A stretch of 64,000 nt of DNA from Deltaproteobacteria bacterium (GTDB lineage: Bacteria; Myxococcota; Myxococcia; Myxococcales; Anaeromyxobacteraceae). The stretch lies in NCBI GenBank assembly GCA_016214955.1, contig JACRMN010000011.1, positions 1 to 64,000 of the forward strand, read 5' to 3'. Both the position numbers and the translations under genes were made by a program. The notes under the pieces are model-generated. The model was not told the origin of the DNA and did no database searches. It saw only the letters and a list, made by a program, of their open reading frames with translations. Every line of letters starts with the position of its first letter. Position 1 is the first letter of the stretch. Positions 20,263-28,968 of this stretch are shown here, in pieces.

Positions 20263-23200
20263 ATGAACAGCATGAGACGCAGCCTGTCGTGGTCGATCCC
20301 CCTGCTGGCGCTAGCCGCTGCCTGCGGCTCGCCTCCCGCCGGCGACGCCTCCCGCCGCCCGGCCGCCGCCGTGACCGCCGCCTCGCCGCGCCCGCAGTCG
20401 CAGCCGGTGAGCCGCCCCGCCGCCCCGGTCCACGTCCTCGTGGAGCTGACCGAGGCCTCCACCGCAGCGCGCTTCGGCCTCACCCTGTCCCGCGGCGGGA
20501 CGACCACCCAGGCCACCAGCGCCGCGGTGGACCAGCTGGCCGCCGTCCAGGTCGAGCAGGCGGCGCTCTCGCAGCGCATCGCCGCGACCCGCATCCCCGG
20601 CACGGTGGAGCTCTACCGGCTCCAGCGCGTCATGAACGGCATCGTCTACGTCACCGACGCCGCCGGCGCCGCGAAGCTGCGCCAGGTGGCCGGCGTGCGC
20701 GCCGTGCACGTCCTCAACGTGCTCGAGCCCGAGAACGCCCGGGGCGTGCCCTTCGTGGGCGCGAGCCAGCTCTGGCGAGCCGCACTCGGCCTGCACGGCG
20801 AGAACATGAGGATCGGCGTCATCGACACCGGCATCGACTACACCCACGCCAACTTCGGTGGCCCGGGAACCGCCGCCGACTACGCCGCCGTCGACCCCAG
20901 CGCCGCCGCGCCTGCCGCCCTCTTCCCCAGCGCCAAGGTGGCCGGCGGCTGGGACTTCGCCGGTCCGGCCTACGACGCCCGCTTCGCCGAGACCGCCATC
21001 CCGCTCCCCGACGCCAACCCCATCGACGGCACGGGCGGCGGCCACGGCTCGCACGTCGCCGGCACCGTCGCCGGGTACGGCGTCACCGCCGCCGGCGCCA
21101 CCTACGGCGGCACCTACAGCGAGACCCTCGACACCGCCGCCATGGCCATCGGCCCCGGCGCCGCGCCGGCCGCGCAGCTCTTCGCCCTCAAGGTCTTCGG
21201 CGACCTCGGCGGCTCCACCTCGCTGGCCCCGCTGGCCGTGGAGTGGGCCACCGACCCGAACGGCGACGGCGACTTCGCCGACCACCTCGACGTCGTCAAC
21301 CTCTCCCTGGGCTCGCCCTTCGGCAACTCGGCCGACGCCGACGCCGTGTTCTACGCCAACGCGGTGGCCGCCGGCGTGGCGGTGGTGGCCTCGGCCGGCA
21401 ACAGCGGCGACTACTACTTCGTCACCGGCGCCCCCGGCTCGACGCCGGCGGTCATCAGCGTGGCCGCCTCCACCGTCGGCTACTACCTGGCCAGCGTCCA
21501 GCTGACGGCGCCCGCGGCCATCGCCGGCTCCGTGCCGGCCGGCACCGCCTCCTTCGGCCCAGGCACCTGGACCACCGTCGCCGCCGACGTGGTGGCCAGC
21601 GCCCCGGCCACCGGCTGCACCGCCCTCACCAACGGTGCCGACGTCACCGGCAAGATCGCCCTGGTGGCCCGCGGCACCTGCTCCTTCCAGCTCAAGGCCG
21701 CCAACGCCCAGGCCGCCGGGGCCGTGGCCGTGATCATCACCAACAACGCCGCCGGCGATCCGCCGGGCATGGCCGGCGACGCCACCGCCCCCGCGGTCAC
21801 CGTCCCCACCCTCTCGATCTCGCTGGCCGACGGCAACGCCATCCGCGCCCAGCTCGCCGTCCCCGCGGTGGTCACCGCCTCGATGGCCTCGGGCAACCCG
21901 GCCTACCTGCCGGCCCTGGGCGACACCATCGCCTCCTTCAGCTCCCGCGGCCCGAGCCGGGTCCGCGATCAGCTGGTGCTCAAGCCCGACGTCACCGCCC
22001 CCGGGTTCAACGTGGTCTCCACCGAGGCCGGCTCCGGCTCCCTGGGCACCGACATGAGCGGCACCTCGATGGCCTCGCCCCTGGCGGCCGGCGTGGTGGC
22101 CCTCCTCCGCCAGGCCCACCCCACCTGGACCCCGGCCGAGATCAAGGCGCTGCTGATGAACACCGCCGGCCACGACCTCTTCAACCTGCCCAGCGCCCCG
22201 CGGGTCGCGACCAGCACCGGCCGCTCCGGCGCCGGCCGCATCGACGCCGCTGCCGCCGGCACCGACCTGGCCATCGCCTACGACCAGGCCGCCCCGGAGC
22301 GGGTGAGCGTCTCCTTCGCCGCCGCCGACGTCACCGCCGCCGGCACCGAGAGCCGCGCCGTGCAGGTCGCCAACAAGGGCGCCGCCGCCGTCACCTACGA
22401 CGTCACCGTGGTCAAGGGCGTCTCGCCCCCGGGCACCGACGTCACCGCCAGCGCCGCCACCCTGGCCGTCGCCGCCGGCGCCAGCGCCGCGGTCAACCTG
22501 GTGCTGAGCTACGACCCTGCGGCGATGGTCCGCCGCCGCGACGCCACCGTGGCCTCCGCCTCGGCGGCAGGGTCCGGGCAGCCGCGCCACTGGCTCAGCG
22601 AGGCCTCCGGCTACCTGCTCCTCGCCCCGCAGGGCGGCGGCACGGCGCTGCGCGTCCCCTACTACGCCGCGCCCACCCCGGCCTCCGTCATGGCCGCCAC
22701 CGGTCCCCTCGACACCAGCGGCGGCGCCACCGGCACCGTCAACCTGCCGCTCACCGGCACCGGCGTGAACACCCGCGCCCTGGCCACCACCGCCGGGGAC
22801 GTCGGCGTCTACTCGCTGGTGACGCCCTTCGAGCTGGCCTACGCCGGCCCGCAGAACGGCCCCACCGGCGGCCCGGTCCCGAGCGGCTACAACGCCGGCG
22901 ACCTCGCCAACGCCACCATCCGCTACGTCGGCGCCACCAGCAACTACCCCGACACCTCGGCCAACTGGGCCAACGCCGGCAAGCTGCTCTTCGCCGTCAG
23001 CACCTACGGCCGCTGGGGCGCGCCCAACGCCTCCGAGGTCGAGTTCGACCTGTGGATCAAGCAGGCCGGCTCGCCCACCTGGGAGGTGGTGGTCTTCAAC
23101 AACGAGCTGGGCCGCTCCTCGGCCAACCCGGGCACCGACGTCCCCGTCACCCAGTCGCTCAACCTGGGCTCCGGCGCCGGCTTCATCGAGGACTTCCTGG

Positions 23201-24360
23201 GCGGCATCGCGGCAGCGGGCGCCACCCGGCCGTTCCTCCCCGTGCAGCTCACCGACACCCTGGTGCTGCCGGTCTACCTGACCACGCTGGGCCTCGATCC
23301 GGCCGCCGCCACCGCCGTCGAGTACCAGGTCGTCAGCTTCAACGCCCTGGGCATCGAGGTCGATCGCACGCCCATCCTGCGCTACGATTTCCTGCACCCC
23401 GGCCTCTCCAGCCACGTCGATCCGGCTCTGGCCGCCCTGGGCGCCAACGGCACCCACGCGCCCTTCTGGAGCGACCTGCCGGGCACCAACCTGCCCATCA
23501 CCTACGACCTCGCCGCCGCGCGCGCCAACGGCACCGGCTCGCTGCTGCTGGTCCACCACCACAACGCCCTCGGCAACCGCGCCCAGGTCGTGCCGGTGGC
23601 CAGCCTGACCTGCGCCAGCAACGCCGCCTGCACCACCCCCGGCGCCACGGTCTGCGACACCGCCAGCGGCGCCTGCGTGGGCTGCCTCACCAACGCCGAC
23701 TGCGCCGCCTCCGGCGCCGGAGCCTACTGCGACGCCTACGGCACCCGCACCTGCCTGACGCCGGACTGCCGCCGCGTCGGCGCGCCGCCCTGCGGCGCCC
23801 ACGAGACCTGCAGCGCCGACCTCGGCACCTGCCTGCCCAACCAGCAGCTGGTGCTGGTGCAGCTGGTCGGCGCCAACAGCGCCTGCCCGGCGGGCGGCCA
23901 GGCCATCCACACCGGCTACGACGACAACCGCAACGGCGCCCTGGACCTCCAGGAGATCGCCACCACGGCCTACGTCTGCAACGGCCTCTCCACCACGGCG
24001 GTCACCGAGCCGCCCGGCGCCAACTGCGCCGACGGCGGCGTGCGCATCCAGCACGAGGGCGGCGCCGCGGTGTACGTGTGCAATGGCGCCGACGGCGCCA
24101 GCACCACCGTGACCGCCGAGCCGGCCGGCACCAACTGCGCCACCGGCGGCCTGCGCGTCCAGGTGGGCACGGGCGCACCGAGCTACGTGTGCAACGGCGC
24201 CGCCGGGGCCACCGGCCCGGCGGGCCCCGCCGGGCCGACGGGGCCCACCGGCCCGCAGGGGCCCAAGGGCAAGAGCGGCTGCTCCAGCGTCGGCGCCGAC
24301 CCGGCGCTGCTGTCGCTCCTCGGCCTGGCGGCCCTGTTCCGGCGCCGCCGCGTCGCCTAG
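20263..24360 (+). CDS. Large secreted subtilisin-like serine protease with PA domain, collagen-like segment and MYXO-CTERM tail
   Basis: 1365 residues with a GGAGG site before the ATG. The leader MNSMRRSLSWSIPLLALAAAC resembles a lipoprotein signal. An I9-type propeptide (about residues 50-160) precedes the S8 catalytic domain with Asp188 (VIDTGIDYTHANF), His261 (GGHGSHVAGTVAG) and Ser602 (MSGTSMASPLAAGV). A protease-associated domain is inserted at about 413-533, as in C5a-peptidase and cucumisin types. Beta-sandwich regions follow. After these come a Cys-rich segment (about 1115-1190), three repeats ending in YVCNG, a collagen-like Gly-Pro-x run (GPAGPAGPTGPTGPQGPKG) and a tail reading GCSS, a hydrophobic helix and RRRR, matching the MYXO-CTERM sorting signal. 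Probably cell-surface attached and later released. Confidence 0.9.
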   Translation: MNSMRRSLSWSIPLLALAAACGSPPAGDASRRPAAAVTAASPRPQSQPVSRPAAPVHVLVELTEASTAARFGLTLSRGGTTTQATSAAVDQLAAVQVEQAALSQRIAATRIPGTVELYRLQRVMNGIVYVTDAAGAAKLRQVAGVRAVHVLNVLEPENARGVPFVGASQLWRAALGLHGENMRIGVIDTGIDYTHANFGGPGTAADYAAVDPSAAAPAALFPSAKVAGGWDFAGPAYDARFAETAIPLPDANPIDGTGGGHGSHVAGTVAGYGVTAAGATYGGTYSETLDTAAMAIGPGAAPAAQLFALKVFGDLGGSTSLAPLAVEWATDPNGDGDFADHLDVVNLSLGSPFGNSADADAVFYANAVAAGVAVVASAGNSGDYYFVTGAPGSTPAVISVAASTVGYYLASVQLTAPAAIAGSVPAGTASFGPGTWTTVAADVVASAPATGCTALTNGADVTGKIALVARGTCSFQLKAANAQAAGAVAVIITNNAAGDPPGMAGDATAPAVTVPTLSISLADGNAIRAQLAVPAVVTASMASGNPAYLPALGDTIASFSSRGPSRVRDQLVLKPDVTAPGFNVVSTEAGSGSLGTDMSGTSMASPLAAGVVALLRQAHPTWTPAEIKALLMNTAGHDLFNLPSAPRVATSTGRSGAGRIDAAAAGTDLAIAYDQAAPERVSVSFAAADVTAAGTESRAVQVANKGAAAVTYDVTVVKGVSPPGTDVTASAATLAVAAGASAAVNLVLSYDPAAMVRRRDATVASASAAGSGQPRHWLSEASGYLLLAPQGGGTALRVPYYAAPTPASVMAATGPLDTSGGATGTVNLPLTGTGVNTRALATTAGDVGVYSLVTPFELAYAGPQNGPTGGPVPSGYNAGDLANATIRYVGATSNYPDTSANWANAGKLLFAVSTYGRWGAPNASEVEFDLWIKQAGSPTWEVVVFNNELGRSSANPGTDVPVTQSLNLGSGAGFIEDFLGGIAAAGATRPFLPVQLTDTLVLPVYLTTLGLDPAAATAVEYQVVSFNALGIEVDRTPILRYDFLHPGLSSHVDPALAALGANGTHAPFWSDLPGTNLPITYDLAAARANGTGSLLLVHHHNALGNRAQVVPVASLTCASNAACTTPGATVCDTASGACVGCLTNADCAASGAGAYCDAYGTRTCLTPDCRRVGAPPCGAHETCSADLGTCLPNQQLVLVQLVGANSACPAGGQAIHTGYDDNRNGALDLQEIATTAYVCNGLSTTAVTEPPGANCADGGVRIQHEGGAAVYVCNGADGASTTVTAEPAGTNCATGGLRVQVGTGAPSYVCNGAAGATGPAGPAGPTGPTGPQGPKGKSGCSSVGADPALLSLLGLAALFRRRRVA

Positions 24361-26245: not shown

Positions 26246-27526
<1,281 letters not shown>

Positions 27527-27552
27527 TTGTGGTTCCTCCTCTCGCCCGCGCC

Positions 27553-28782
<1,230 letters not shown>

Positions 28783-28968
28783 GTTCACCACCTCCGGGCG
28801 AGTTGGCGCAGTCGCGCTTCGCCCCATCGAGCCCTCTCGGGCCCTTTTCGGCCCGGGAGAAGCGACCGAGCCGCTTCCCCCGGATTCCCTGTCGCGCCGG
28901 GGCAGGTCCGCCCCTTCGCGACGCCCCTGTCCGCTCGGCGGCCGGCCCGTCGGCCTGCCGCCTCGCGG

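Follow-up and report, generated by a model that had tools for sequence, protein, structure and literature searches.

A PA-domain subtilase of Anaeromyxobacteraceae with signals for lipidation at both ends and a possible exchange of anchors on maturation

The window analysed here, i.e., the first 64,000 nucleotides of contig JACRMN010000011.1 (Anaeromyxobacteraceae; genome of 5.3 Mb in 30 contigs), encodes a PA-domain subtilase of 1365 residues. The gene is a single open frame on the forward strand (20263-24360 in the window's list of open reading frames), with GGAGGAG three bases 5' of its ATG; the antisense strand also carries a long open frame, as is common at 75% GC. The protein belongs to peptidase family S8, given its Peptidase_S8 domain (PF00082, residues 179-637, E-value 1.9e-47, 162.4 bits, over the cut-off), the presence of all the catalytic residues (D188, H261, N380 and S602) and its fold. 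The initial annotation had listed a lipobox-like leader, a PA-domain subtilase, Cys-rich and YVCNG repeats, a Gly-x-y run and a MYXO-CTERM tail, and all of them were found in this frame (Table 1). The YVCNG repeats are three copies of DUF7151 (PF23657, 3.4e-23), and a match to fn3_5 falls under the Pfam cut-off. The subtilase is built mostly from known parts, in an unusual arrangement.

Table 1. Features of the subtilase gene, in window coordinates (pLDDT, predicted local distance difference test).
Feature	Position	Strand	Basis
Leader ending LAAA/C, lipobox type	20263..20325	+	sequence; fits lipoprotein patterns; LAAACG 6/6 in orthologue
C21 codon	20323-20325	+	sequence
Linker, residues 22-53, predicted disordered	20326..20421	+	pLDDT <50 for 1-53; 13/31 identical to orthologue over 23-53
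Subtilisin-type propeptide domain, residues 54-152	20422..20718	+	fold model; superposition on 3whi_A; no Pfam propeptide match
Expected maturation junction, residues 153-165	20719..20757	+	pLDDT <50 at 155-164; residue 161 = residue 5 of mature subtilisins; cleavage predicted
S8 catalytic domain, residues 166-668	20758..22266	+	PF00082, motifs, fold
PA domain inserted in S8, residues 440-527	21580..21843	+	PF02225, 6.9e-21
Beta-rich region, residues 669-1112, start weakly Fn3-like	22267..23598	+	fn3_5 below cut-off; model strands; relatives match to about residue 1110
Cys-rich region, residues 1113-1194	23599..23844	+	12 Cys in 1117-1190; low-confidence fold
Three DUF7151 (YVCNG) repeats	23848..24195	+	PF23657; five in orthologue
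Collagen-like Gly-x-y run, residues 1312-1338	24196..24276	+	10 triplets from 1312; PF01391 below cut-off
MYXO-CTERM tail, residues 1338-1365	24274..24357	+	TIGR03901, 21.3 bits in genome scan, 19.4 in protein scan
C1340 codon	24280-24282	+	sequence

The leader (MNSMRRSLSWSIPLLALAAAC21, with LALAAAC21 as its final part) fits both the PROSITE-type and the G+LPP-type lipoprotein patterns: the n-region, the h-region and a lipobox before the Cys are all present. We compared it with the orthologue (G020:C454), which comes from another genus and is 59% identical over the alignment. The six residues LAAACG are all identical, against 7 of the 16 before them and 13 of the 31 after them (residues 23-53). 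Because this motif is conserved within a poorly conserved region, an ordinary signal peptide seems less likely, and handling of the leader as that of a lipoprotein is favoured. The leaders of five subtilase relatives without a MYXO-CTERM tail, from the same and related genomes, have no lipobox. In records from Bdellovibrionales and Oligoflexia (L155 and L159), the same subtilase core follows a lipobox-like leader but is not accompanied by a C-terminal sorting signal.

At the other end, the protein closes with SGCSSVG...LLSLLGLAALFRRRRVA and a stop codon, and the Cys, the hydrophobic stretch and the Arg-rich end (RRRR) are all there. The tail that had been read as a sorting signal does match the MYXO-CTERM model TIGR03901, at borderline scores (for a cut-off of 20, the genome scan gives 21.3 bits and the protein scan 19.4). 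The orthologue's tail scores 16.8 bits; its SGCSSVG is identical at 7/7 positions and the tail architecture is kept. Several MYXO-CTERM tails in the family genomes score equally low. The initial annotation had made its proposal depend on a myxosortase in the genome, and we found one: mrtX (G000:C5:115818-116438) matches NF040593 with 195.4 bits (cut-off 180). The motifs given for MrtX are EExxxR and HxxxN (PMC11980579), and this copy carries both, as EEAFYR and HALSN. The gene was detected in all 24 family genomes, in 20 of them over the cut-off. Two further MYXO-CTERM motifs lie close to it on the same contig, at 108.4 kb and 114.5 kb, the nearer 1.2 kb away. When coordinates were compared by eye, MYXO-CTERM genes stood a few kb from mrtX in at least 8 of the 24 family genomes (G000:C5, G003:C1, G004:C115, G006:C1, G009:C51, G010:C6, G012:C1 and G022:C23). 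Our count of MYXO-CTERM genes in the genome of the subtilase is a lower bound (150 of 188 candidates scored); this genome fits the small number of such genes mentioned for Anaeromyxobacter in PMC11980579. In line with the family placement, a genome of the same family (G005) encodes an 873-aa protein that also occurs in a record of Anaeromyxobacter soli (L163). The genome of the subtilase also encodes the GspD secretin (513.3 bits, over the cut-off), and lipoproteins are described as leaving the cell by type II systems (PMC12802150).

The position of C21 relative to the propeptide bears on what the two signals could achieve together. In an AlphaFold2 model of residues 1-1112 (28 sequences, mean pLDDT 81), residues 1-53 are disordered (pLDDT <50), residues 56-150 form a beta-alpha-beta-beta-alpha-beta domain, and an uncertain segment (155-164, pLDDT <50) precedes the catalytic domain. 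With VIA-align, residues 54..667 superpose on the unautoprocessed pro-subtilisin E 3whi_A (Z 38.8, 2.3 Å over 341 residues) and on other subtilisin proforms as well, and the model from residue 161 matches mature subtilisins from their residue 5. No Pfam propeptide family matches residues 1-181, so that the propeptide is visible in the fold model only. From these superpositions on proforms and mature enzymes, the mature subtilase should start near residues 157-161, with C21 on the propeptide side of the predicted autoprocessing site. Most likely, then, the N-terminal lipid would go on maturation and the C-terminal anchor would be left, i.e., double anchoring would be sequential and not permanent. 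The double anchoring put forward in the initial annotation is accordingly possible for the precursor, as both signals and mrtX are present; the permanent two-lipid form is less likely, because C21 lies on the propeptide side.

We lean, with moderate confidence, towards a cell-surface zymogen with two successive anchors. Starting from what was computed here (two conserved signals, an intact mrtX, the gene for GspD and a propeptide fold after C21), we infer all the processing steps and their order as follows. After Sec export, the leader would be treated as a lipoprotein signal and C21 lipidated, tethering the still inactive proform to the inner membrane through the propeptide. The MYXO-CTERM segment would anchor the other end, where MrtX would cleave after lipidation of C1340. 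The folded subtilase would then pass the outer membrane through the type II system, and autoprocessing near residue 157 would shed the lipidated propeptide, so that the active enzyme retains the C-terminal lipid alone, kept off the membrane by the Cys-rich region, the DUF7151 repeats and the Gly-x-y spacer. Such a hand-over is supported by the conservation of the lipobox and of the MYXO-CTERM motif in the orthologue while their flanks diverge, and by the leaders without lipobox of the tail-less relatives. The recurrence of the pairing, described next, also speaks for it, and dentilisin PrtP, VesB and the lipoproteins that leave by type II systems serve as precedents.

We then surveyed MYXO-CTERM proteins for lipobox-like leaders, with start codons picked from a hydrophobicity score and by visual inspection. 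In the family set, 86 places gave 64 usable proteins from 24 genomes, after dropping 10 (motif Cys absent, frame wrong or a duplicate at a contig end) and 12 without a readable leader; in the phylum sample, 60 of 98 places were taken, mostly the best-scoring, and 55 proteins from 14 genomes remained once 5 without a readable leader had been dropped. A lipobox-like leader occurs in 9/64 family proteins (shuffles: 3.7 +/- 1.7, up to 11), a modest excess, and in 14/55 phylum proteins (2.7 +/- 1.6, maximum 8 in 1000 shuffles). Pooled, this makes 23 of 119 proteins, or 21 without two doubtful ones (L133 and L229). On this sequence evidence, the pairing of lipobox and MYXO-CTERM is a recurrent design, not peculiar to the subtilase gene. 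Among the papers that our literature searches listed (an earlier in silico study of myxosortase and Table S1 of PMC11980579 lay outside them), we saw none that describes lipobox leaders on MYXO-CTERM proteins, which does not amount to proof.

Proteases account for 11 of the 23 double-signal proteins (five S8, two C25, one M36, one M4-like, one M14 and one S1), and several have Pfam propeptides (FTP, Propeptide_C25, Fervidolysin_NPro); the others include FG-GAP, Cys-rich, Kelch and unknown proteins. For the 55 single-signal family proteins, Pfam families come from the best 25 of 52. In phmmer comparisons, proteases of any kind are more frequent among double-signal than single-signal proteins (11/23 vs 19/96, p=0.014), as are families with large propeptides, a class picked after seeing the double-signal set (9/23 vs 6/96, p=0.0002). 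The comparison based on motifs only is not significant (8/23 vs 15/96, p=0.07). Other results weigh against the hand-over. After clustering into 61 groups, of which only the pure ones were counted (five are mixed), the protease enrichment weakens to 2/11 vs 1/45 (p=0.095). Since 12 of the 23 match no protease query, propeptide loss cannot explain all double-signal proteins, and since some protease homologues have a lipobox where others have none (clusters L057/L246, L076/L077 and L224/L243), the N-terminal lipid is not indispensable. The protease enrichment is suggestive only, and the exchange of anchors would fit about half of the double-signal proteins; in the remainder both lipids would stay in place, provided that both are attached. 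As a tentative generalisation, possible rather than probable, Myxococcota may have a class of MYXO-CTERM proteins that recurs, includes many zymogen proteases and is lipidated at the two ends in succession: a disposable lipid on the propeptide would hold the inactive form and the MYXO-CTERM lipid the active one, activation and change of anchor would be one event, and members without propeptide would be permanent two-lipid staples.

Several observations weigh against two successive anchors in the subtilase itself. Position -3 of its lipobox is Ala instead of Leu, a weak variant, and the AAA ahead of C21 fits signal peptidase I as well. In Acinetobacter and Klebsiella, lipoproteins need GspN to be exported by the type II system, and no PF01203 match was found at E <= 0.1 in the genome of the subtilase, a draft 95.6% complete in which a divergent homologue is possible. 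The leader may be an ordinary signal peptide, cut by signal peptidase I within LALAAA, with C21 incidental and the C-terminal anchor the only one. The AxA-type sites at the leader end, the lipobox-like match that appears in 10% of shuffles of the leader, and the 96 of 119 surveyed MYXO-CTERM leaders that have no lipobox agree with this, but the context of C21 is invariant in the orthologue where residues 23-53 diverge, and the phylum sample holds more lipobox leaders than any of its shuffles; we regard the ordinary signal peptide as rather unlikely.

Two other readings concern which lipids stay. Both could be kept on one chain, with the intervening loop stapled to the outer membrane: the two signals are present and conserved, and this is the plain reading for double-signal proteins without a recognised propeptide. 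For the subtilase it is improbable, given that C21 lies ahead of a propeptide that subtilases shed for activity and that the acylated propeptide of dentilisin is released (PMC8167434). Conversely, the N-terminal anchor could be the only one if the MYXO-CTERM tail were a degenerate relic. Its scores on either side of the cut-off, and the lower one of the orthologue, would be consistent with decay; yet SGCSSVG is invariant, the tail architecture is kept, mrtX is intact and several other tails of the family score as low, which makes a relic very improbable.

The region before the sorting signal had been proposed to act as a spacer or a trimerising stalk. The Gly-x-y run is short but real: its ten triplets from residue 1312 exceed the longest run in 2000 shuffles of the protein (six), and the last triplet overlaps the GCS of the sorting motif. 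The orthologue has triplets between its DUF7151 repeats as well. Trimerisation into a stalk is nevertheless hardly credible, and we rejected it. The Collagen match (PF01391, residues 1312-1339) reaches 18.1 bits for a cut-off of 27.2 (16.9 in the orthologue), which leaves the run outside the collagen family; the orthologue keeps the run, but with a break in it and at another length; no trimerisation domain was seen; and the run has pLDDT <50 in a weak, barely informative C-terminal model (2 sequences, pLDDT 53). With the collagen score under the threshold and no trimerisation domain seen, the modest reading is a flexible spacer. The run stands where other MYXO-CTERM proteins carry Ser/Thr/Pro/Gly-rich linkers, and the variable number of DUF7151 repeats (three here, five in the orthologue) also suits a spacer.

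MYXO-CTERM motifs were also found inside open frames. In seven family genomes, such a motif is directly followed by a lipoprotein-type signal, e.g., RRRRRPAHRGAALLGLLLLATVASGC (L014:8805-12680, on contig C5 of the same genome and adjoining mrtX; G003:C1, G010:C6, G018:C203, G019:C116, G022:C23 and G023:C67). The downstream halves of the seven frames are homologous, and there is no in-frame ATG between the halves, GTG codons only. Judging from the sequences, each resembles a polyprotein that would be split in two, the first product anchored by its C-terminus and the second lipidated at its N-terminus, with the two hydrophobic stretches as a hairpin. PMC11980579 mentions one internal motif, in MXAN_5598. 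In two other loci (L067 in G011:C80 and L071 in G022:C9), the internal MYXO-CTERM is followed by a second signal resembling those of signal peptidase I and by a different domain.

About 2 kb downstream of the subtilase gene, on the other strand, lie two genes that we take from their sequences to be ftsZ and ftsA (window 26246-28827). A MYXO-CTERM gene adjoins ftsA/ftsZ in M. xanthus (PMC11980579). We rejected a conserved neighbourhood of the subtilase gene: the contig of the orthologue has unrelated neighbours, and ftsZ and ftsA are not close by.

Myxobacteria, which are social and predatory, rely on MYXO-CTERM proteins for the display of enzymes and receptors. Should roughly one in five of these proteins pass through the lipoprotein pathway too, the model of myxosortase action must accommodate substrates whose other end already carries a lipid. 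Double-signal proteins, if real, would directly test the identity of the acyltransferase that acts on the C-terminal Cys and the way in which a chain lipidated at both ends is moved by type II secretion.

The subtilase resembles known myxosortase-dependent proteins (TraA, MXAN_4924; PMC11980579) in its GC motif, hydrophobic stretch and Arg cluster, and in the cognate MrtX and type II secretin of the genome. It differs by the added lipobox leader: in the accessible text, the published model has signal peptidase remove the N-terminal signal peptides, and lipobox leaders are not discussed. For type II-exported lipoproteins of the PulA/InvL type, the genome has the expected GspD and gave no match to GspN. 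Vpr, C5a peptidase and cucumisin-type PA-domain subtilases have the same fold in the catalytic domain and in the domains next to it, and differ in anchors and C-terminal repeats. NalP and SphB1, subtilisin autotransporters, are N-terminally lipidated subtilases with a temporary hold on the surface; in contrast to the present protein they are exported by their own beta-barrel and have no C-terminal lipid signal (PMC9289746). VesB, with GlyGly-CTERM and rhombosortase, is also a zymogen protease with a C-terminal sorting tag and type II export; its propeptide is thought to be removed after passage of the outer membrane, the C-terminal tag serving as anchor, but the sorting enzyme differs and the reported propeptide (24-32) follows a signal peptide that covers residues 1-23 (PMC6219818). 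The match to the dentilisin family (denti_PrtP, NF033595) has 32.7 bits, far under the cut-off of 300, and the subtilase is not a member. Dentilisin PrtP of Treponema denticola is likewise a subtilase with a type II signal peptide and an acylated propeptide of similar length (19-158, vs 21 to about 156 here), and its acyl group goes with the released propeptide, as the mature enzyme begins at G159; the lipoprotein partners PrcB and PrcA1 then hold mature PrtP (PMC8167434), whereas the subtilase described here would use its own C-terminal signal.

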